Assembly (NCBI GenBank): GCA_025362575.1 | Contig: JANYIQ010000223.1 | Coordinates: forward strand, 1 to 57,591 | Length of the DNA: 57,591 nt | Direction of reading: 5' to 3' | Source: Bacteroidia bacterium | Lineage (GTDB): Bacteria > Bacteroidota > Bacteroidia > B-17B0 > Aurantibacillaceae | In this document: in pieces, positions 2,173 to 13,779 of the stretch | How the letters are laid out: the number at the start of each line of letters is the position of its first letter | Position numbering within the stretch: the stretch's first letter is position 1 | Made by a program: the position numbers and the translations under genes | Notes under the pieces: model-generated | Seen by the model: only the letters and a program-made list of their open reading frames with translations | The model's database searches: none | Told to the model about the DNA's origin: nothing

Positions 2173-2967
2173 TTATTTTTCCCATATAACGCTTATTGAA
2201 TAGTTATATGATTTGACAAATAAGCAATACTCGTAAAACCTACTATCTTCTTCATCCCTATACTTCGGTTTAAACCAATCGAACTTCCAGATCTGCTGCT
2301 CCAGTTCGTCGTTGACATAGATTTTTTTAGTTGTAAAGAGTTCATTGGCTACACTTCCATCCGGCGGTGGTTGATCTTTTTGAAACAAAGAAAAATATTG
2401 CCAGTCTTCAGAATACTTAAACCATTTCATCTTATTGTCTTTACAATAAACGATAAAAACAGGATGATTCCCTCGTTTAACGAATTTCAATATTGCTGCT
2501 GTTTTACTTACCTTGAATCTTTTCGCTAAATGCTCAATTACTTTTGGACCAAATTTCTTACCCTCACATTCTTTATAAAAAGCTTCTGTTGGCATTAAAA
2601 ATTCGGAAGCAAATTCATTGGCCTCTATTTCATGCGGCCCACCCTGATACCAATTTAGCATATCTGCTTCTGTATCAGAAAATATTGGTTTAAGTGTACG
2701 ATGCATTTCGTAATGCCCCAACTCGTGGGCAGCAGCGAATCGTTTTTTTGCTTCAAACTCTATGTTAGAATTTATCGTGATAATCGAACGATTATCTAAT
2801 GAAACAATTTCCCCTTCTTTTCCGATTAATGGTTTTTCTTCATAAAATGCCTTTCTACCCATTATGATCTTACTCATTGGATAATCGGCAGGATCGTCTA
2901 AGCCACATTCTTCAAGAACTTTTCTCGCGACCTGCTCTGACTTTGAAAAATTAAGGTTTACCGCCAT
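2173..2967 (-). CDS. ImmA/IrrE-family metallopeptidase
   Basis: A 264-residue protein. The zinc-peptidase motif A-H-E-L-G-H-Y-E-M-H lies near residue 81, and a second acidic segment E-A-N-E-F-A-S-E-F-L-M-P near residue 115 provides the third ligand region. This is the pattern of ImmA/IrrE (COG2856) peptidases, which cleave XRE-type repressors in mobile elements (ImmA of ICEBs1) or DdrO in Deinococcus. The gene overlaps the upstream coiled-coil gene by 17 nt, so they are one operon with the sigma-like gene. The natural substrate is unknown. It could be the XRE protein at 1709-2014 or a partner in its own operon. Confidence 0.88.
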   Translation of the reverse strand: MAVNLNFSKSEQVARKVLEECGLDDPADYPMSKIIMGRKAFYEEKPLIGKEGEIVSLDNRSIITINSNIEFEAKKRFAAAHELGHYEMHRTLKPIFSDTEADMLNWYQGGPHEIEANEFASEFLMPTEAFYKECEGKKFGPKVIEHLAKRFKVSKTAAILKFVKRGNHPVFIVYCKDNKMKWFKYSEDWQYFSLFQKDQPPPDGSVANELFTTKKIYVNDELEQQIWKFDWFKPKYRDEEDSRFYEYCLFVKSYNYSISVIWEK

Positions 2968-3358
2968 TATTTTTTAAGGCTAATAACTTCAAGGTATAAT
3001 GCTTCACAAGGATATTTTTTTCATCTTCTCTCGACAGTGTTTCCACGTTTCTGAAATTTACCATCAATTCCTCCTCTTTAACCACTTTGGCAAATGAGTA
3101 ACCCTCCACTCCCATGAGTTCATTTACCAAAGCTTCTGCTTCCTTTTCAAAATCATTTGCAGAATCCATCTCCAAACTAATTTTCTGAGCATTAAGTTCC
3201 ATCTGCAACTTTTTAATTTTCTTTTGTGTTTCAGAAACAATGACATCCGCGTTTAACCCCTGTGAAGAAAGGTATTCTCTTGACTTTTCTTCGTCAGAAC
3301 TATTATGTTCAATCACGGACATAGCTAATCTGATAAACTCGGTTTTGCTTTTTTGCAT
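2951..3358 (-). CDS. Small coiled-coil protein of unknown function, in operon with ImmA
   Basis: A 135-residue, highly charged protein that I do not recognise. Residues about 38-80 (S-E-T-Q-K-K-I-K-K-L-Q-M-E-L-N-A-Q-K) have the heptad pattern and charge of a coiled coil. There is no membrane segment or signal peptide, so it should be cytoplasmic. It lies 11 nt downstream of the sigma-like gene and overlaps the metallopeptidase gene by 17 nt. This suggests it is translated with them and may be an adaptor, inhibitor or substrate of the peptidase. That role is inferred from position only. Confidence 0.7.
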   Translation of the reverse strand: MQKSKTEFIRLAMSVIEHNSSDEEKSREYLSSQGLNADVIVSETQKKIKKLQMELNAQKISLEMDSANDFEKEAEALVNELMGVEGYSFAKVVKEEELMVNFRNVETLSREDEKNILVKHYTLKLLALKNNGGKP

Positions 3359-3369
3359 GTGTTTTTGTT

Positions 3370-4005
3370 TTACGGTGTTTTTTTTAAGTCGTATTTTTTT
3401 GGTTTTTCTATTTCGTATTTTTTTGCGATATTATTTAGTAGGGTCGTTAGCCGACGAAATCCGTTATTATAATCCTTAGCAGAAATGTTAAACTCATTCA
3501 TTACATCCATTGGCTTCATCCCCAATACGCGAAGACCTAGATAAATGTTTTCCAAAATCGGTTCTTTCGCAACTTCGGTTTCAATTTCTGTTAAAATATT
3601 TTTAAAATCAACCTCTTGATCCAAAAATACTTCGGCTTGAGGCACAATTAAATCTGAGTAGCTGGAAATTGAATCTTCTTCCTCATGATAATCAACCGTT
3701 ACTTCACTAGCAACACCGGTTCTGTTCTCGGAAGAGCGAAGGTCATTAATTACAAGGGATTTTATTAAATTATATTTTAAGTACTTTTCTAATGTGCCTC
3801 GTGAAGGTTCGAATTTTTCAGGATTTTCTAAATATTTCTTTATTGCTTCAAAAACATAGTCTTGCGCCTCTTTACCGGCGTTAAAGACTTGGGTTTCTGG
3901 GCCTCGGAACCAACCGCGGCCCTTCACCAATTGTAATGTAAACGCCGTTAGGCGTAATATCATTTTATCATCTATAGGGCTTTCTTCAGGTACCTGTTTA
4001 TCCAT
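3370..4005 (-). CDS. Sigma-70-like (ECF-like) regulator
   Basis: A 211-residue protein. Residues about 45-95 (K-E-A-Q-D-Y-V-F-E-A-I-K-K-Y ... F-E-P-S-R-G-T-L-E-K-Y-L) look like sigma region 2. The C-terminal 50 residues (V-L-G-M-K-P-M-D-V-M-N-E-F-N-I-S ... F-R-R-L-T-T-L-L) look like a region-4 helix-turn-helix. The domains are linked by an acidic stretch, and the match to well-studied ECF factors is loose. It is the first gene of the sigma-like/coiled-coil/ImmA operon and is divergent from the ubiquitin-like operon across 144 bp, so it is the best candidate regulator of that operon. DNA binding and promoter recognition are inferred. Confidence 0.65.
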   Translation of the reverse strand: MDKQVPEESPIDDKMILRLTAFTLQLVKGRGWFRGPETQVFNAGKEAQDYVFEAIKKYLENPEKFEPSRGTLEKYLKYNLIKSLVINDLRSSENRTGVASEVTVDYHEEEDSISSYSDLIVPQAEVFLDQEVDFKNILTEIETEVAKEPILENIYLGLRVLGMKPMDVMNEFNISAKDYNNGFRRLTTLLNNIAKKYEIEKPKKYDLKKTP

Positions 4006-4015
4006 TTTAAGCTAT

Positions 4016-4139
4016 TTACATACCTATATATGGTAGCAAGTTAGTGTTTTTTGCAGGTGGTTAAAAAAAATATTTTCACCGCTTTTTTTACCCCTTAACT
4101 GCAAAACGTAAGTGCAAACAACCATTTATAGGTATAAAA
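4016..4139. promoter_or_regulatory. Symmetric divergent regulatory region between sigma-like and ubiquitin-like operons
   Basis: Two 18-bp arms face each other, 4016-4033 and 4122-4139, and match at 15 of 18 positions as an inverted repeat with a shared perfect core ATACCTATA/TATAGGTAT. Each arm lies 10-11 bp from the start codon of the gene on its side. Inside lies a second inverted pair TTTTGCAG (4049-4056) and CTGCAAAA (4099-4106), and then GGTG/CACC around an A/T-rich centre. The layout suggests that one protein controls both operons through matching operators. No standard TAnnTTTG element stands out, which would fit an alternative sigma factor. Confidence 0.5.
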
Positions 4140-4149
4140 CAAATAAAAA

Positions 4150-4686
4150 ATGAAAAAAGAAGAAACAGCGCAAGGCGCAAATGAAGTAATTGACTTAGCA
4201 GCTCACACAAAGTCAGACAAAAAGCCTCCAGTGGGGAAAAAATACGAGGTTATCGTTGACGGTGAAAAATACGTTTTCGATCATCACGTGGTAACAGGTA
4301 AAGAGGTGCTTGATAAAGCTGGAAAAATTCCCGCGGAATGCCACAGTCTTTATTTAAAACTTAAACACTGCGACTTTGAGCTTATAAAGCTGCACGATAA
4401 GGTAGATCTTATCGAAAAGGGAGTTGAACACTTTATAACGAAACCTCCTTTGGTTTACCATTACTTCGTAGATGACGAGCCGGAAACTACCGAAGAAAAG
4501 GAGCTAACTCCTAACCAAATCCTAGAACTTGCCGGGATAACTCCGGTGAGCGATTACTACTTGGTTCAAATTCTCTCGGACGGTACGCAGATCTCATACA
4601 AAGATTCGCCGACCACGCCAATCAAAATGAAGTGCCCAGCGATGAAGTTCGTGTCTGTTTTTCGCGGTGAAACTCCTGTATCATAA
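4150..4686 (+). CDS. Multi-ubiquitin-domain protein (two tandem beta-grasp Ubl domains)
   Basis: A 178-residue protein with no signal peptide. After a charged leader, residues about 29-97 form one beta-grasp unit (K-Y-E-V-I-V-D-G-E-K-Y-V-F ... D-L-I-E-K-G-V-E-H-F). Residues about 101-174 form a second (Y-H-Y-F-V-D-D-E-P ... F-V-S-V-F-R-G). This two-unit layout matches the prokaryotic multi-ubiquitin family (Pfam Multi_ubiq). The C-terminus ends R-G-E-T-P-V-S instead of the Gly-Gly of eukaryotic ubiquitin. It is first in an operon with E2-like and E1-like genes and is the presumed protein modifier. Whether it is trimmed before conjugation cannot be told from sequence. Confidence 0.85.
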   Translation: MKKEETAQGANEVIDLAAHTKSDKKPPVGKKYEVIVDGEKYVFDHHVVTGKEVLDKAGKIPAECHSLYLKLKHCDFELIKLHDKVDLIEKGVEHFITKPPLVYHYFVDDEPETTEEKELTPNQILELAGITPVSDYYLVQILSDGTQISYKDSPTTPIKMKCPAMKFVSVFRGETPVS

Positions 4687-4695
4687 AACATAGTT

Positions 4696-5061
4696 ATGGC
4701 AAAATCAGATTTTATAGCACAACTGCAAGCTCTTAACTATAAAGTTCAAGAGCTTGCGGCTGATTTTGTACTGGTAGAGTACAAAATCCCCGTCGGAAAA
4801 TTTCAAGGCCAATGCGTTTCGATGGCGTTTCAGGTTCACGATAGTTTTCCAATGACTCCGCCTCCTGGTCCGCACTTCAGTCCTCAGCTCTTACCAATAA
4901 CTGGTGGCGGTGGCGCACATCCATTTGGTGCTATTCACAACAGCGCACTAGGCGCTAGTTGGGAATATTGGAGCAGACCTTTTAAAGATTGGAACCGAAC
5001 CGATAAGACCGCAAGAACTTACCTTGCTCACATAAAAAACCTTTTAGCAACTATTCCATGA
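4696..5061 (+). CDS. E2-like ubiquitin-conjugating-fold protein (prokaryotic E2 family E type)
   Basis: A 121-residue protein. The core fits the E2 (UBC) fold: F-Q-V strand, a P-P-P-G-P-H-F segment (55-61), then H75-P-F-G as the counterpart of the E2 HPN motif, and W-E-Y-W-S-R-P after it. The only cysteine is C40, in an early strand. The region after H-P, where an E2 normally has its thioester cysteine, has Ser83 and Ser88 instead. It sits between the multi-ubiquitin and JAB-E1 genes and overlaps the latter by 4 nt (ATGA). It probably receives the Ubl from the E1 partner, by a non-cysteine route or as a non-catalytic scaffold. Confidence 0.82.
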   Translation: MAKSDFIAQLQALNYKVQELAADFVLVEYKIPVGKFQGQCVSMAFQVHDSFPMTPPPGPHFSPQLLPITGGGGAHPFGAIHNSALGASWEYWSRPFKDWNRTDKTARTYLAHIKNLLATIP

Positions 5062-6485
5062 ACATATACAGCGTAGTAATTCGGGACGATCACCACAAAA
5101 GCCTTATCGAGCACCTTGTAAGGTTAGACGAGCAGGAAGATTTGTGCTTTGCTACCTACGTGCCGAGCACAGGCTTGAATAGACTCAGCGGCATTATAAC
5201 CAAAGTGATCCTTCCAAAAAAAGGCGAGCGCCGTGTGCATGGAAATGTAGGATTTCTGCCCTCCTACCTTGAGCGGGTTTTACGGATCGCAAGTGAAAGA
5301 AAAGAAGGAGTTGCTTTTTTACATTCACATCCTTGGCCGGGATGGCAACGAATGAGTAGCGATGATATTGTTGCAGAAAACAGAATGGCTCCTGCGGTAA
5401 TGGCGACAACGGGACTGCCCTTGTTGGGTTTGACGACAGGCAACGACGGATCATGGAGCGCGCGTTTCTGGACAAAGGATGATTCCATCAAACGAAAGTA
5501 TAACCGGCAATGGTGCGAAACGGTCCGTGTGATCGGGAAAAGTTTAAAGATCACTTTTAATGATGATTTACTGCCTGCAAGTTTTGATAAAGGCAAACAG
5601 CTTCGTACTATTTCAGCGTGGGGAGAAAAAACACAAGAGGATTTGTCAAGGATAAGAGTTGGTATTGTTGGATTAGGTAGTGTTGGAAGTATTGTCGCAG
5701 AAATTTTGAGTAGAACCGGAATCTCTAACTTTACATTGATTGACTTCGATGGCGTGGAAGAAAAAAACCTTGATCGTTTAACGAACGTTTTTAAGAAAGA
5801 TATTGGAAGAAGTAAAGTGGATGCGATTTACGATGCGATTAAGCGTAGCGGTACTTCACCAAAAATCAAAATAAAAAAAATTGAATACAGTGTTTGTGAA
5901 AAAGAAGGTTTTAAAGCAGCACTTGATTGTGATTTACTTTTTAGCTGTGTCGATAGACCTTGGCCGCGAGAGGTTCTAAATTTTATTGCTTATTCGCACA
6001 TGATTCCAGTTATTGACGGAGGGATCATGGTGCGTACTAATAAAAGGAATACCGCAATCGTTGGCGCAGATTGGAAAGCCCAGACCGTTGGTTACAAGAG
6101 AGCTTGCCTTGAATGCTTAGGTCAATACAAAACGGAAAACGCCGCATTGGAGAAATCGGGTTTGCTCGACGATCCTTCGTACGTTAACGATTTACCGAAC
6201 GCAGCTTTTGTTAACGCTCATGAAAATGTTTTTGTTTTCAGTTCACATTTAGCGTCGTTAGAGGTTTTACAAATGCTTAGTTTGCTTATAGCACCTTCAG
6301 GTATAAGTGATGTTGGTCAACAGATGCACCATTTCGTTACCGGAACAATGGAAACACAAAGCTCACAGGCTTGTCATAATCACTGCTTTTTTCCAACAAT
6401 CATTGGTGTTGGAGATGTTTCTTCTGTGATACCTTATGGAAGCCATAAGATTGCGGAGGAAAGCAGAGAAAGTAGAAGAGAATAA
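5058..6485 (+). CDS. JAB deubiquitinase-like / ThiF-type E1 fusion protein
   Basis: A 475-residue two-domain protein. Residues about 1-165 form a JAB/JAMM domain with H89-S-H91-P and S100-S-D-D103, the metal-binding signature of Ubl-removing or Ubl-trimming peptidases. Residues about 190-475 form a ThiF/E1 adenylation domain with G205-L-G-S-V-G210 and D-F-D-G-V-E-E-K-N-L-D-R (229-240). Cysteine pairs C350/C353 and C439/C443 can form the structural zinc site. No cysteine lies between these pairs, where ThiF, MoeB and eukaryotic E1s carry the thioester cysteine. The fusion places activation and trimming or removal of the Ubl in one polypeptide. It ends the three-gene operon. Confidence 0.87.
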   Translation: MNIYSVVIRDDHHKSLIEHLVRLDEQEDLCFATYVPSTGLNRLSGIITKVILPKKGERRVHGNVGFLPSYLERVLRIASERKEGVAFLHSHPWPGWQRMSSDDIVAENRMAPAVMATTGLPLLGLTTGNDGSWSARFWTKDDSIKRKYNRQWCETVRVIGKSLKITFNDDLLPASFDKGKQLRTISAWGEKTQEDLSRIRVGIVGLGSVGSIVAEILSRTGISNFTLIDFDGVEEKNLDRLTNVFKKDIGRSKVDAIYDAIKRSGTSPKIKIKKIEYSVCEKEGFKAALDCDLLFSCVDRPWPREVLNFIAYSHMIPVIDGGIMVRTNKRNTAIVGADWKAQTVGYKRACLECLGQYKTENAALEKSGLLDDPSYVNDLPNAAFVNAHENVFVFSSHLASLEVLQMLSLLIAPSGISDVGQQMHHFVTGTMETQSSQACHNHCFFPTIIGVGDVSSVIPYGSHKIAEESRESRRE

Positions 6486-6621: not shown

Positions 6622-7548
6622 CTAACCTGTATCCATTTCGCGTTTCAGATATTCTGCCCACTCATACCTTATAAGAAAGTCGGCCAAGTCGAGTCCTTGT
6701 TCGCGTTCATCTTCCGTTGCTATATGTTCCAACATATCTGATGTTATTATCACAATGTTTTTCAGCTTTTTTCTCATGTTGTGTGCCTTCTCGCTCCATA
6801 GTTCAAACTTTCCCAAGTCCGGCCAAAGGATTATATAGCGATTCTCCAGTACCTTTATTTTATCGTTAGTAAGGCCAGTGGCGCCACCACAAGCTAACCA
6901 GATGTAATCCGGATTATATGCCGCTGCGATTAGGGCCGATTTTTCACTCTCAAGGATGCAAACTTTTCGATCAGGAAACGTTGCCAACAGATGCTCTCCA
7001 AAAAAACATTGTCTAAGTTCGAAATCTTTTTTTCCTTGAAGTCGACTTACCCACATAACTGGAGGCATGTTTGTTTTAACTCTGCCACAGTTAATTTGCA
7101 AGAAACAATTTTCATCATGACGCATTGCATACTGCATGATCTTTCCGTTCCTGATTTTTCCTTCAATATCAATTTGCCAAAAAACAGTAGCACCTTTCCA
7201 AAACCAAGAAGTGCCAATTTTATATTGTTGCTTTATTGCTTCTGCGGTATTGTCGTCTGTCAATTTTTTAATGAATCGGAAAAGAACATTTTGATTATAA
7301 CTACCCAAACTTTGCTGTAGTACCCTTGGGTCAATAAAAGAAGTTGCTTTTATCATGAGAGTTATTTTTCTCTCTTTCCAATTCTCAACAACCTTAGCAG
7401 AATCCGGCGAAAAAATTTTATCACAACCGAAACAATAACCTTTATCTGTGTAACCAACGAAGGGGCTAAACTTTCCATCTCCATTAGACTTGCCGCAGGG
7501 GCAATGTTTTACGCCCCTGCGATCAAGATTAAATTTTAGCTTACTCAT
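6622..7548 (-). CDS. Zinc-finger/toprim primase-like protein
   Basis: A 308-residue protein starting MSKLKFNLDR at 7546-7548. An upstream extension in the same frame would only read through the end of the helicase gene. The N-terminus has C-P-C-G ... Y-C-F-G-C, a CHC2-like zinc-binding site like that of DnaG-type primases. The middle holds a toprim-like segment with C-I-L-E-S-E-K-S-A-L and A-C-G-G-A-T-G-L. The layout resembles DUF6371-type proteins of Bacteroidota mobile elements. It overlaps the stop of the primase-helicase gene by 8 nt, so the pair probably works together in replication of the excised element. Confidence 0.75.
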   Translation of the reverse strand: MSKLKFNLDRRGVKHCPCGKSNGDGKFSPFVGYTDKGYCFGCDKIFSPDSAKVVENWKERKITLMIKATSFIDPRVLQQSLGSYNQNVLFRFIKKLTDDNTAEAIKQQYKIGTSWFWKGATVFWQIDIEGKIRNGKIMQYAMRHDENCFLQINCGRVKTNMPPVMWVSRLQGKKDFELRQCFFGEHLLATFPDRKVCILESEKSALIAAAYNPDYIWLACGGATGLTNDKIKVLENRYIILWPDLGKFELWSEKAHNMRKKLKNIVIITSDMLEHIATEDEREQGLDLADFLIRYEWAEYLKREMDTG

Positions 7549-9097
7549 TTTCAAGAAGTGATGAAAGTGATGAAAGTGATGGTATAGGAGAAGCGTCTTT
7601 TTCCAATTCAGGCACTTTCTTTTCGATAAACGCAACAAGCCCGATATTTCGTTTTTCAATTCTTACGTTAAGACCTCTAAGACGCTTTACGAAGTTTCCA
7701 TGACTGAGTGGCTTGTAGCGGAACTCCTTGCAGAATTCGCCGTATTCGCTACCTATGTTTTTTACAGAGATGTATCTCTCAAAACATTCTTCATAATTAC
7801 ATTCGTCTAGAAACATTTTTACGTTGTCGGATTCAGCTTTGTATTTGGCCAATTCTTTCTGTACGGCGTCGCAAAAGGTGAAACCTTTCTGAGTAAGCAA
7901 ACGGTTTAACCCTTCAAGCACCCAGTTGAATATTCCTGATAGTTCTCCAGCAGCGATTATTTTTTGCGCCAGTTCTTTGTCCTGTTCTTTTTCCGGTATA
8001 GTAACATTGAAAGGAATTATAATAAATCTGCGAAAGTAAGCGTGTGTGTGTTCAACGTTTTTCGGAAGAGTATTACAGTTGAAAGCAAATTTGCAATAGT
8101 TGGTAACTCTTATAGGCGCACCGTATATTGGTCTGGCCATTACAGGTTCGCCGGATGCTAGTTGCTTGAATAAATCCGCTTCAAGTTCGCCGGAAATTTC
8201 AGAAGCATAATTGAGCAACTTATTACCTATAGTAGCTAAACTATAACTGTTCTTGTTCATCAGATTCTGTAAAGAGTAACTACTCACATTGGATTGACCT
8301 AAGAGCGAGTTCATAAGATCGTAAAAAACACTCTTTCCGTTTGCGCCTTCTCCGTAAAGCATCAAAGCCTTTTCAAGTTTCAGCGTTCCTGTTTTTACGA
8401 AAACTGAAGCGAAAAATTCTGCTAATACTTTCTGACACGCGATGTCCGGTTGAACTCGATTAAGAAACGTTTCAAACATCGGAGCCTTTGCATCTGGGTT
8501 GTAATCGAAATTCAATTGATAAGTTAAAAAATCCTTTTTGTCAAATCCTCTCAACCTACTTTCCTTTGAGGTAAATTCAAACGTGCCATTTTTTAAATTG
8601 ATTAACACACAAGAATTACTTTGTTCCGGGCTAGGAAGAATTGCCTGTGTCATGAACTGCTGCATGAGACCTTTTCTGTAAGCGTGAAACATTGCTGTAA
8701 ACTTGCCAACACCTAATTTCCTAGCGGCGTCGCCAAGGAAAGATTGAATTTCATCTTTTTCCATTACATCCCAATACTGTGAGTTGTAGTTAAAAAGAGA
8801 ACCGTTATTGATACACAAAGCCCAATGATTTCTAAGAGCTGCTTCTTGGACTTTCTCAACCGTTATTATTTGTGTGTGCTTACTTAGTAATTTTTCGTTC
8901 GCTCCTAAATTAGCCTCAGCAAAAAAATCGACTGGGTTTAATTCCTCAAGCAACAGAGAAAGTATTTTTTTATGGTGCACCAATTTAATTGCTGCACTTG
9001 GTTCTGTTGGATTGGCAATGCTGTCACCCCCATTCAAAACTTTTTCTATTTCTTCCTTCAAGTCTTTTATCGGAAGTTTTTTTTTAATTTTTGTCAT
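7541..9097 (-). CDS. P4-type primase/D5-like helicase of the mobile element
   Basis: A 518-residue protein. A D5-N-like region precedes a superfamily 3-type helicase ATPase with Walker A L-Y-G-E-G-A-N-G-K-S near residue 250 and a sensor segment C-K-F-A-F-N-C-N-T-L-P. This matches the DNA primase/helicase of phage P4 and related satellites and ICEs, which unwinds the origin of the element. The extreme C-terminus has a short S-L-S-S-L-S-S-L-L repeat coded by a GTGATGAAA-type nucleotide repeat. It is transcribed with the zinc-finger/toprim gene. Confidence 0.85.
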   Translation of the reverse strand: MTKIKKKLPIKDLKEEIEKVLNGGDSIANPTEPSAAIKLVHHKKILSLLLEELNPVDFFAEANLGANEKLLSKHTQIITVEKVQEAALRNHWALCINNGSLFNYNSQYWDVMEKDEIQSFLGDAARKLGVGKFTAMFHAYRKGLMQQFMTQAILPSPEQSNSCVLINLKNGTFEFTSKESRLRGFDKKDFLTYQLNFDYNPDAKAPMFETFLNRVQPDIACQKVLAEFFASVFVKTGTLKLEKALMLYGEGANGKSVFYDLMNSLLGQSNVSSYSLQNLMNKNSYSLATIGNKLLNYASEISGELEADLFKQLASGEPVMARPIYGAPIRVTNYCKFAFNCNTLPKNVEHTHAYFRRFIIIPFNVTIPEKEQDKELAQKIIAAGELSGIFNWVLEGLNRLLTQKGFTFCDAVQKELAKYKAESDNVKMFLDECNYEECFERYISVKNIGSEYGEFCKEFRYKPLSHGNFVKRLRGLNVRIEKRNIGLVAFIEKKVPELEKDASPIPSLSSLSSLLENE

Positions 9098-10839: not shown

Positions 10840-12132
10840 TTATGCCGACTCTAATTCTTTTTTGCGCCAAATATTCTCCAAAAGTTTTGCATCTTCAAAA
10901 TTCGTGGTCTTAAGATATTGAAGGAATACTTTTTCGGATTTATGAGCCGTTAATTTCATTATCAATAAAGAACTAACGCCTTTTTTAAAAAGATTTGTAG
11001 CAAAAGATCTTCGGGCTGTGTGGACGGTAATCAACTCATACTTCTTCTTGTTTGTTGTGACAAGTCTACCGCCCCGCGTAATGTTTGTTTGTATTACTTC
11101 ATGCAAACTTTCAACACGCTTACCAACCTCCTTCAAATACCGATTCATTTGCCCGTTTGATAATGCCGGAGGCAAAGAGTTTGAAAACATGATATATTTA
11201 CTCATTACTTCTTTTACCATCTGGTGCATTGGTATAACCACTATTTGTCCCGTCTTTTGCGTTTTGATTTCAATTTTATTGCCTTTTATGTTTTCTGGTA
11301 AAATGTTCGTCAAGTCGGAGAAACGCAAACCCGTCCAACACCCAACGATAAACAAATCTCTTACTCGTTCAAGTCTTTTACAATCCGACAAATCCATATA
11401 AAACATTTCTTCAAGTTCTTTTTCATTTAAGTAGATACTATAAGTTTGTTCTGATAAAACTCGAAACCTTTTGTTTCTGAAAGTTAGATTAGAATTCAAT
11501 TCCCTATCAGTTGCCTCATTTAAAAACATTTTTAAAGTCTTCGTATAACGGCCAACACTACTATTGCATAAAACCAATTTTCGGCTGAGAAAATCTATCC
11601 AGTTATCATAAAACTCCAAATCAATGGTTTCAAAATCTATTCGCTTGTTATAATAACTTTGAAATTCTTTTAATCTTCGTAGTGTATTTCGGTAAATTCT
11701 TATTGTGCCTTTGGCGAGTTTTTTTCCTGTATCTCTATTGAGTCTATTCTTCTCCGACTCTTGAATGAACGATTCAATAAACTCGAAAAAATTTAAACTT
11801 CTTTTTAAGGGCGCATCTCTGAGTTTGTGATCTAATAATTCTTTTAGTTCCTGTGGCTGAGGTGTTCTGTCATTGTCGTTCATAAATTGTCTGAAGGCAG
11901 AGCGAGCTGTTGATTCTATGTGATTAAGCCTAGTGTTAAACTCAGGATGTCCCACATAAGAAGATTTGATCCTTTGGAAGTTCTTTTTGCTTTTGTCGTT
12001 CTCGAAATATTGCGGACGCACTTTTTCTAATGTCGAATACATCAGTTTTTTATTACCCCACCGAATAATAAGATTAATCGGGGTCTCTTCTTTTGTGTTT
12101 ACGCGTCTTAAATTGAAGTTGTAGTTTACCAT
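10840..12132 (-). CDS. Tyrosine site-specific integrase
   Basis: A 430-residue protein with a phage-integrase SAM-like core-binding domain (about 100-210) and a catalytic domain at the C-terminus. The conserved residues are visible: the first Arg in T-G-L-R-F-S-D-L, the H-T-A-R-R box, the later His in T-A-H-K-S, and the nucleophilic Tyr in L-Q-Y-L-K. Size and architecture fit Bacteroidota ICE integrases. It is the rightmost gene of the island and begins about 280 bp from the probable attachment core, with three short direct repeats in between that may be its binding sites. Confidence 0.93.
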   Translation of the reverse strand: MVNYNFNLRRVNTKEETPINLIIRWGNKKLMYSTLEKVRPQYFENDKSKKNFQRIKSSYVGHPEFNTRLNHIESTARSAFRQFMNDNDRTPQPQELKELLDHKLRDAPLKRSLNFFEFIESFIQESEKNRLNRDTGKKLAKGTIRIYRNTLRRLKEFQSYYNKRIDFETIDLEFYDNWIDFLSRKLVLCNSSVGRYTKTLKMFLNEATDRELNSNLTFRNKRFRVLSEQTYSIYLNEKELEEMFYMDLSDCKRLERVRDLFIVGCWTGLRFSDLTNILPENIKGNKIEIKTQKTGQIVVIPMHQMVKEVMSKYIMFSNSLPPALSNGQMNRYLKEVGKRVESLHEVIQTNITRGGRLVTTNKKKYELITVHTARRSFATNLFKKGVSSLLIMKLTAHKSEKVFLQYLKTTNFEDAKLLENIWRKKELESA

Positions 12133-12220
12133 GATTTATGTTTTTTGAAATTTTACTATCACCAGCCGGACCAAACTTTGGATATATGACAAACCGGCAA
12201 AAAAAGACCTCTTTTTTAAC

Positions 12221-12241
12221 AAAAAAGCCCGAATCGGGCTT
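12221..12241 (-). terminator. Rho-independent terminator upstream of the integrase
   Basis: On the minus strand a stem AAGCCC/GGGCTT with a 5-nt loop is followed by a run of T. It would stop transcripts entering from the chromosome before they reach the integrase gene. No gene to its right on this strand obviously needs it, so insulation of the integrase is the likely role. Confidence 0.6.
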
Positions 12242-12370
12242 AAATGGGGTTGAAAAATTGAATATGCATCCGACATCGGTCAGGGCGTCGGTATATTTTT
12301 CCCTTACTTTCTTGGGGACTTGTAATCGCTCTGGTATCAGTCTGACAGCCTTACATGTGGAGAAAAGTGT

Positions 12371-12400
12371 TCGGGAAAATTCGGGAAAGTGAGGGAAAAT
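12371..12400. repeat. Three exact-period 10-bp direct repeats next to the attachment site
   Basis: Three consecutive 10-mers, TCGGGAAAAT, TCGGGAAAGT and GAGGGAAAAT, follow with no gap and share GGGAAA. A 10-bp period puts each unit on the same face of the helix. They end 11 bp from the att-like core, which is the position expected for integrase or excisionase arm sites. Confidence 0.5.
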
Positions 12401-12411
12401 GTCCCTAGTTT

Positions 12412-12424
12412 CCAGCGGGATCAC
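12412..12424 (+). other. Probable right attachment site: tRNA 3'-end-like sequence
   Basis: CCAGCGGGATCAC reads like the end of a T-arm plus the 3' strand of a tRNA acceptor stem. The sequence to its left does not complete a tRNA, so this would be the duplicated 3' end left by integration, with the intact tRNA at the far (left) end of the island. It lies close to the integrase gene, and a strong terminator hairpin follows it, as expected behind a tRNA. The tRNA identity and the exact crossover are not resolved. Confidence 0.4.
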
Positions 12425-12433
12425 TGGTAAGAC

Positions 12434-12465
12434 AAAAGCCTTAGCGCCATAGCGCTAAGGCTTTT
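12434..12465. terminator. Strong hairpin terminator (14-bp perfect stem)
   Basis: AAAAGCCTTAGCGC pairs with GCGCTAAGGCTTTT across a 4-nt loop, followed on the plus strand by T residues. It can act in both directions. Its place just after the tRNA-like sequence suggests it is the original terminator of the tRNA transcript. Confidence 0.75.
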
Positions 12466-12467
12466 TT

Positions 12468-12810
12468 GTTTACCTGAAGCGCCGAAAGCGGAGCTTTCGT
12501 AAGCTGAGGGTAAACAAAAAAGCGGAACCGCGACAGCGGGGCCAAGCTTTTTGTTTTGCAACCCGGATAGCTGGGATCAGCGATAGCTAATCCTTTACAA
12601 GCCCATATTTTACTAGTACTCCCAACAAACCAGCGGAGCCGCGATAGCGGAACCAAGCTTTTGTTTTGCAACCCGGATAAGCCGGCATCAGCGATAGCTA
12701 ATCCTTTACAAGCCCTGATTTTACTGATACTCCAATCGAAAAAGCGGAACCGCGACAGCGGGGCCAAGCTTTTGTTTTGCAACCCGGATAGCTGGGATCA
12801 GCGATAGTTA
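12468..12810. repeat. Inverted repeat followed by three copies of a 111-bp tandem repeat
   Basis: An imperfect inverted repeat (GTTTACC at 12468 to GGTAAAC ending at 12515) is followed by tandem units beginning at 12521, 12632 and 12743. The last is partial and fades near 12810. The period is exactly 111 bp, so the minus strand stays open as a false 113-residue frame of repeated text. Each unit carries internal inverted pairs (such as AGCGGAACCGC) typical of dispersed intergenic repeats in Bacteroidota. I regard it as non-coding. Confidence 0.8.
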
Positions 12811-12963
12811 TCCATAAAAGTCCCCGATAATCTATAGATAACTGACTGTTAGTGCTTTAACAAGCAAATAAATATACTTCACCCTTTAAGAACCCCACAA
12901 TTGCGCATATTTTAAGTCTTTTAAATTTAATTTATTGCTTAAGTTTGAGCTATAAATCTATCC

Positions 12964-13779
12964 TTGGAGCCCTATTTAGCCTATATCTTCTTCGCACTTA
13001 TCGGTCTGGTTCTGGGCTTAATTGGCGGCGGAGGCTCCATTCTCGGGGTTCCTGTACTGATCTACATTTTACATTATCCTGTTGATGTAGCTACAGGATA
13101 TTCTTTGTTCATTGTAGGAATAACCTCCTTTATAGGGGCTTTTGCTTTCATTAAAAGAGGCGATATTAGTCTTGAATCACTCATTCAGTTCGCCGTTCCT
13201 TCGCTTATCACCGTTTTTTGCGTTCGAAAATATTTAATTCCGCGGCTTCCGGCTGTTTTTTTCAACATCGGAGGCTTTGAAGTAAGCGAACAAATGGTAA
13301 TTATGACTGTTTTCTCGATCCTGATTCTTTCTTCTTCATTTAGCATGATCCGAAAAAACAAAACAAACACCAAGGCAGACATTATGTGGGCTGAGTTCTC
13401 AAGAACACCCATTCGTAAATATTTTGTTTTGGTTTTAGCAGTTTTGGTTGGATTTTTATCAGGCTTTGTTGGTGTAGGCGGAGGAATTATCATTATTCCC
13501 GTTCTTTGCTTCTTTCTGAGAGTTCCCATGAAAAAAGCAGTTGGAACTTCCTTAAGCATAATTGCCCTTAACTCACTTATTGGTTTTACGGGTACCATTA
13601 GCCATCTTTCTATCGACTGGCGCTTTTTGCTAAGCGTTTCGGCATTCTGCGTGGTTGGAATACTTGGTGGAAATGCAATTTCAGGCAAAATTTCATCTAA
13701 TAAACTTAAGCCCGCCTTTGGATGGTTTACCCTAATAGTTGGTATCTTTGTTATAGTAAAAGAGTTTTTATTCAAATAA
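12964..13779 (+). CDS. Sulfite exporter TauE/SafE-family membrane protein
   Basis: A 271-residue integral membrane protein with about eight hydrophobic segments. It has the two glycine-rich inverted motifs of the family: G-L-I-G-G-G-G-S-I-L-G-V-P near the N-terminus and G-F-V-G-V-G-G-G-I-I-I-I-P-V in the second half. The family moves sulfite or other sulfur oxyanions across the inner membrane. The start codon is TTG at 12964; no in-frame ATG exists before the upstream stop at 12946. The MBL-rhodanese gene follows after 7 nt, so the two form a sulfur-handling operon. Confidence 0.88.
   Translation: MEPYLAYIFFALIGLVLGLIGGGGSILGVPVLIYILHYPVDVATGYSLFIVGITSFIGAFAFIKRGDISLESLIQFAVPSLITVFCVRKYLIPRLPAVFFNIGGFEVSEQMVIMTVFSILILSSSFSMIRKNKTNTKADIMWAEFSRTPIRKYFVLVLAVLVGFLSGFVGVGGGIIIIPVLCFFLRVPMKKAVGTSLSIIALNSLIGFTGTISHLSIDWRFLLSVSAFCVVGILGGNAISGKISSNKLKPAFGWFTLIVGIFVIVKEFLFK

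Follow-up and report, generated by a model that had tools for sequence, protein, structure and literature searches.

Bub operons are the described bacterial systems closest to the locus presented here. According to the literature, 544 of them have been catalogued, DNA-damage controllers are common upstream (219 of the 544 carry CapW or CapH+CapP), and, as of 2026, protection against phages had not been demonstrated for them (PMC13373217). Cleavage of CapH, a transcription regulator, by CapP is activated by ssDNA (PMC10904395; PMC13373217). A precedent for the use of a protease, an anti-sigma factor and a sigma factor in immunity is Calp of type III CRISPR (PMC12751052). Bub structures are also available in the PDB (9ea4 series), and the class can no longer be called sparsely studied, as it had been in an initial sequence-only reading of this locus.

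The window, i.e., the whole stretch of DNA analysed, is an entire contig of 57,591 bp from a Bacteroidota genome of 4.32 Mb. The three genes that the sequence-only reading had described as a ubiquitin-like conjugation operon on an integrative element were confirmed as ORFs at 4150–6485 on the + strand. A divergent sig-sml-capP cassette, overlooked in that reading, is part of the same module and is the most specific clue to its function; the paired promoter-like sites between the two operons were likewise absent from it. The features of the locus are as follows:

2173..2967, − strand: CapP, metalloprotease of the M78/ImmA-IrrE family (264 aa, HELGH motif intact)
2951..3358, − strand: SML, small protein of 135 aa, all-helical; proposed to be an anti-sigma factor and the substrate of CapP
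3370..4005, − strand: SIG, sigma factor of the ECF type (211 aa, with domains for regions 2 and 4)
4020..4056, − strand: proposed SIG promoter of the sig-sml-capP operon, CTGCAAAA-N14-ACCATATATAGGTAT, an exact bipartite match
4099..4135, + strand: proposed SIG promoter of the Bub operon, CTGCAAAA-N14-ACCATTTATAGGTAT, same spacing, opposite direction
4150..4686, + strand: BubA-like multi-ubiquitin protein (Multi_ubiq; 178 aa, two beta-grasp domains)
4696..5061, + strand: E2-like protein of Prok-E2 family E (Prok-E2_E; 121 aa)
5058..6485, + strand: JAB-E1 fusion, BubCD-like (475 aa, JAMM peptidase domain and ThiF/E1 adenylation domain)
7541..9097, − strand: P4-family D5 primase/helicase of the island (TIGR01613, 1.3e-50; PHROG DNA primase, 1.5e-86)
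10840..12132, − strand: tyrosine integrase of the island (Phage_integrase, 3.7e-10; PHROG integrase, 3.6e-29)

The presence of an integrative element was borne out by the genes found at 6.6–12.1 kb, which encode a DUF6371 protein, the P4-family primase, two excisionase-like HTH proteins and the tyrosine integrase. Synteny with five congeners begins only at about 12.93 kb, and nothing to the left of this point matches them. Because the contig starts inside the island, its left end is missing. No attL/attR direct repeat of at least 12 bp was found between positions 1–2500 and 12100–13000. Searches of the window for tRNAs and Rfam RNAs found none. A number of short repeats, some inverted and others direct, lie at 12438–12800, after the integrase and before the core genes, and may mark an island boundary. 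Beside CapP, at 591–2077, an XRE HTH protein and a type II-like DNA methyltransferase gene have the look of a restriction-modification control arrangement, and the start of the contig seemingly truncates another coding sequence, perhaps that of a second methyltransferase.

Comparison with Pfam placed the products of the three + strand genes in the following families: Multi_ubiq, matched in two stretches (1.3e-17), Prok-E2_E (1.8e-6; 28.2 bits against a curated cut-off of 25) and ThiF (8.1e-30). The frames are as tight as had been described, with a gap of 9 bp between the Ubl and E2 genes and an overlap of 4 bp between those of E2 and E1. Pfam JAB models give no match at the N-terminus of the third protein; its JAB part is recognizable from a JAMM signature that is complete and invariant in eight orthologues (E27, H89-S-H91, S100, D103), as well as from the alignment to Citrobacter BubCD, which extends from the JAB region into that of E1. 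Given that the GxGSVG nucleotide loop is also invariant across the eight orthologues, both active sites of the fusion look intact. Citrobacter BubCD is the best solved relative of this protein (7.9e-21), and the operon is therefore of the Bub type.

The C-terminus of the window Ubl protein is V-S, and all six aligned proteins end in V-S or V-A, not G-G. In the E2 alignment, G34 and S93-R94 are the sole invariant residues. A cysteine census revealed that this family has no conserved cysteine and that the orthologues in loci L001 and L016 lack Cys altogether, which makes a canonical thioester relay via E2 unlikely. The E2 profile matches the E2 of the Rhizobium Bub operon at 4e-6, and no chain was found with it in the PDB.

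On a Citrobacter plasmid, a gene for a 362-aa protein combining Multi_ubiq and Prok-E2_E is followed by genes for a JAB-E1 protein and a DUF6527 protein, and the Rhizobium operon has the order HTH and ImmA/IrrE, Ubl, E2, E1, DUF6527. Based on the families common to these operons and the window, the trio belongs to the Bub class: it comprises a Multi_ubiq modifier, a Prok-E2_E protein with no conserved cysteine and a JAMM-ThiF fusion. DUF6527 was found neither beside the trio nor anywhere in the 4.32 Mb genome, and the trio was thus classed as a Bub-like variant and not as a canonical Bub operon, the canonical form being taken here from the Citrobacter and Rhizobium operons, although DUF6527 may not be definitional for the family. 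The trio represents a known kind of operon in variant form, with a conjugation activity that is predicted from family membership.

The trio is conserved as a unit, contrary to the outcome that the sequence-only reading had named as refuting it, orthologues whose neighbours do not preserve the trio. Without DUF6527, it also occurs in the Bacteroidota loci L001 (71% E1 identity) and L083 (64%), and on plasmids of Mycobacterium, Clavibacter, Rhodococcus, Nocardioides and Pseudarthrobacter (E1 identity, 37–41%). Two actinobacterial Bub-like trios (L019, 3831–8470; L016, 8684–9361) have a sigma factor nearby, and in Nocardioides genes for a sigma factor, a 222-aa protein and ImmA/IrrE lie directly upstream of the trio and codirectional with it, which points to a parallel pairing of sigma factor and protease in another phylum. 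No support was obtained for a phage origin of the trio: relatives of E1 or CapP were not found in viral contigs, nor was any of the Ubl protein in phage records.

The sig-sml-capP operon lies 144 bp from the Bub operon on the opposite strand, and its frames overlap or nearly abut, the SML gene overlapping the CapP gene by 17 bp. Judged by sequence comparison, the identity of CapP is unambiguous (PADLOC capP, 7.9e-66; Peptidase_M78, 1.9e-19); its closest solved match is the PDB structure of CapP, 7t5t (6.7e-17). SIG was modelled by AF2 with a pLDDT of 77.7. The top 15 Foldseek matches of this model consist of sigma-factor chains, ECF for the most part, and one RNAP-subunit model, with SigH, SigE, SigL, RpoE, SigK and AlgU among the top chains (probability ~1; best E-value, 7.5e-3); a different placement of the two domains keeps their overall TM-scores low. 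The SIG family profile matches SigW in the PDB at 1.8e-7 over both region 2 and region 4. Six of the 23 family members match Sigma70_r2, at 2.4e-6 in the best case; the window SIG by itself gives 0.025. Based on the modelled structure and the family profile, SIG is an ECF-type sigma factor, and it is predicted to direct RNA polymerase.

SML always sits between SIG and CapP. Its AF2 model (pLDDT 76) is all-helical. A fold search of the PDB gave no significant match, none to anti-sigma folds and no convincingly similar chain, and Pfam detected no domain and no HTH; the PADLOC capH model scores 0.0085 against it. The N-terminal module of SML is fused to an M78 protease in L025 and to an SNF2 helicase in L030. 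The 544-aa fusion of L025 (7818–9452) continues after the protease into a C-terminal region that is macrodomain-like by eye, and adjoins a DUF7002 protein that matches DarT weakly. That of L030 (4891–7080) stands beside a GHKL ATPase in a sigma partner architecture without CapP. A marginal match to SML (0.0097) was obtained in L027, where a Panacea-like C-terminus had been read by eye; Pfam gives no match to it, and this label was rejected.

All six genes recur in L001, a Chitinophagaceae MAG, where the flanking relaxase, coupling-protein and integrase genes are unlike those of the window; the six genes therefore travel as a module. For the cassette itself, CapP was sampled in 395 Bacteroidota genomes with its neighbours disregarded, and the best 26 loci were fetched; in 22 of these 26, a sigma factor and a small protein are encoded upstream of CapP on the same strand. 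Since the SIG and SML profiles were built from most of the sampled loci, the evidence lies in the constant gene order and mutual similarity and not in E-values; L087, which is outside the training sets, still matches.

Including the window, 23 cassettes were compared with respect to what they face: CBASS (6), Ubl conjugation or related operons (9), a 228-aa family (5) and other genes (3), which puts CBASS or Ubl operons opposite 15 of the 23. Among 70 divergent proteins scanned, ThiF was found 10 times, Multi_ubiq 9, SMODS 6, DncV 5, and DUF6791, DUF6527 and Prok-JAB 4 times each; none of these families reaches two in a control of 70 proteins on the far (downstream) side of the same CapP genes. 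The model that seeded the sample is named after CBASS, a possible source of bias. A Pontibacter plasmid carries sig-sml-capP (CapP 68% identical) opposite a Ubl-E1-DUF6527 operon, followed by umuD/umuC, and a Chryseobacterium plasmid carries a subtype of the cassette opposite a Pycsar operon. An independent search that started only from the sigma protein likewise reached a Ubl operon in L025 and, in L027, a CD-NTase-like gene (SMODS, 0.0022). Many other immune operons of bacteria lie opposite this three-gene switch, which may activate them upon DNA damage.

The recurrent family of about 228 aa (MAELKxKxxGKxSGxxGD...), which has no Pfam match, is encoded divergently from sigma/small/CapP cassettes in L071 (9094–9783), L077 (8904–9599), L096 (10345–11028), L099 (5172–5858) and L114 (2747–3430), and a further copy is found in L094 (4042–4743). 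These are candidate immune or stress genes; a first label, DUF6266, had no Pfam support and was dropped. In L028 (2392–6834), the cassette is divergent from Tn7-like transposition genes (TnsA-like, TniB).

The 144-bp region between the two operons contains two identical back-to-back copies of CTGCAAAA-N14-ACCATWTATAGGTAT, one toward each operon. They face outward, are 42 bp apart edge to edge, and each has a spacer of 14 bp. This bipartite element was spotted by eye before testing. Its two copies are the sole matches to the pattern in the window (none in 100 shuffles) and, in a slightly shorter form with up to two mismatches, the sole matches in the 4.3 Mb genome, where the reversed-pattern control gave none. 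The sigma profile matches nine other places in the same genome. The simplest reading is that one dedicated sigma factor drives both operons, with the two sites as candidate promoters.

In L001, the corresponding arm CCAACATATA is present in both directions (p = 0.01), and the same layout with locus-specific letters was seen by eye in L015, L026, L070, L075, L086, L092 and L072. Post hoc, 9 of 30 sigma loci were found to have a symmetric intergenic region (z ≥ 5), compared with none of about 34 divergent pairs that served as controls. The window itself fails the palindrome test for the whole intergenic region; its outward arms pass (p = 0.02). With a strict regular expression for the promoter, only 3 of 15 type-A loci were recovered, against an expectation of 0.08 and none among 33 controls. 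Both of these tests gave a weaker signal than the pattern seen by eye and, given an element found in that way and this rate of recovery, its occurrence across subfamilies in general is no more than suggestive.

Taken as a whole, the locus is somewhat better read than not as a six-gene mobile module, in which an inducible Bub-type conjugation operon is joined to its own sigma/SML/CapP switch. With a sigma factor in the place of CapH, the most economical model makes SML both the anti-sigma factor and the substrate of CapP. SIG would recognise just two promoters, those of its own operon and of the Bub operon, and would be kept inactive by SML. Upon accumulation of ssDNA, CapP would be activated and cleave SML, and the freed SIG would fire both promoters, resulting in autoamplified induction of the conjugation operon. 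The anti-sigma role of SML, its cleavage by CapP, the ssDNA trigger and an output in anti-phage or stress defence are all inferred. The chemistry of the trio is predicted by analogy with Bub, to which its families assign it: the ThiF domain would adenylate the C-terminus of the multi-Ubl protein, the E2-like protein would hand the Ubl to targets without a cysteine thioester, and the JAB domain could trim or deconjugate. Bub conjugation involves Ser-oxyester chemistry, a point that carries no weight as evidence here.

Two other arrangements of the switch were considered. SIG may itself be a CapH-like repressor, a degenerate sigma-like protein that occupies the divergent promoters until it is destroyed by CapP. 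All described CapP partners are repressors (PMC13373217), and outward symmetric sites could be operators, a strong intergenic palindrome being present in the same 9 of 30 SIG loci. This arrangement is nevertheless improbable, as the family profile matches SigW over regions 2 and 4, the top matches of the model are ECF sigma factors, the bipartite, outward-facing sites 42 bp apart resemble promoters and not one dimer operator, and the constant SML gene would be left without a role. It is less probable still that CapP has its genuine CapH counterpart in the XRE protein encoded downstream (1709–2077, − strand), SIG and SML serving another role. This protein scores better than SML against PADLOC capH (7.5e-9 vs. 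0.0085), and its gene follows capP by about 95 bp on the same strand. However, it overlaps the DNA methyltransferase gene (591–1712) by 4 bp, like a restriction-modification control protein, and in L001 and L015, both of which keep sig-sml-capP, what lies downstream of CapP is not XRE but conjugation genes and umuD, respectively.

As to the output, a tentative alternative of some substance is that the module gives the element a general response to DNA damage or stress, or a maintenance device, and is not anti-phage. The umuD/umuC genes that follow the Pontibacter copy would fit such a role, as would the Bub operons' lack of demonstrated anti-phage activity (PMC13373217) and the cassettes that face non-immune or unknown genes (five the 228-aa family, one Tn7-like); against it, the divergent partners include the known anti-phage systems CBASS, which is frequent, and Pycsar. 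That the trio belongs to a sulfur-carrier or cofactor pathway of the ThiF/MoeB kind is barely credible: the E1 domain is of the ThiF family and MoeB matches the fusion at 7.4e-14, but BubCD is the better structural relative, Multi_ubiq, Prok-E2_E and the JAMM domain share one operon, the location is mobile, and thiamine or molybdopterin genes are not adjacent.

The inducible six-gene module is the preferred reading, and the divergent sigma/SML/CapP operon is the more novel part of the locus. The literature search, with subscription journals outside its scope, yielded no description of a sigma-type CapP cassette, which makes its novelty probable, not certain. Immune controllers described to date (CapW, CapH+CapP, CapK+CapS) act by derepression. 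A protease switch gated by a sigma factor would bring in activation of transcription and autoamplification and, if true, would provide one inducible input module common to CBASS, Pycsar and ubiquitin-like systems of Bacteroidota. As the cassette marks candidate immune operons, such as those of the 228-aa family, it is usable for their discovery. The chances are about even that it represents a fourth, activator-type class of DNA-damage controller, widespread in Bacteroidota, in which CapP, a small anti-sigma factor and a private ECF-like sigma factor would act through twin promoters on themselves and any linked immune operon (Bub, Bil-like, CBASS or Pycsar), the fusions of the SML N-terminus (M78, SNF2) pointing to a modular sigma-gated input layer.

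Compared with the enterobacterial form of Bub (Citrobacter BubCD, 9ea4 series), the window has in common Multi_ubiq, a Prok-E2_E protein without conserved Cys and the JAB-E1 fusion; its E1 is only about 27% identical, and its controller is of the sigma type, in place of CapH, CapW or CapK+CapS. The likeness to Bil (BilABCD) lies in the Ubl protein, which BilA (PDB 8u38) matches at 7e-7. In Bil systems, JAB and E1 are separate proteins (BilD and BilC), whereas the two are fused in the window. No CD-NTase gene is present in the trio operon, which sets it apart from CBASS Cap2-Cap3. With CalpL/CalpT/CalpS, the Lon protease, anti-sigma factor and sigma factor of type III CRISPR, the window shares the proposed logic of a signal-activated protease that destroys an anti-sigma factor and thereby releases a sigma factor in the setting of immunity; the protease is M78, probably triggered by ssDNA, where Calp has Lon-SAVED and cA4, SML has no convincing counterpart among PDB chains, and the sigma factor would target the neighbouring defence operon. 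CapH+CapP resembles the window in an orthologous CapP with HExxH, encoded adjacent to and divergently from an immune operon. In place of an HTH CapH partner, the window has an ECF-like sigma factor and a helical small protein, and its switch is predicted to activate rather than derepress, whereas CapH, CapS and CapW repress.
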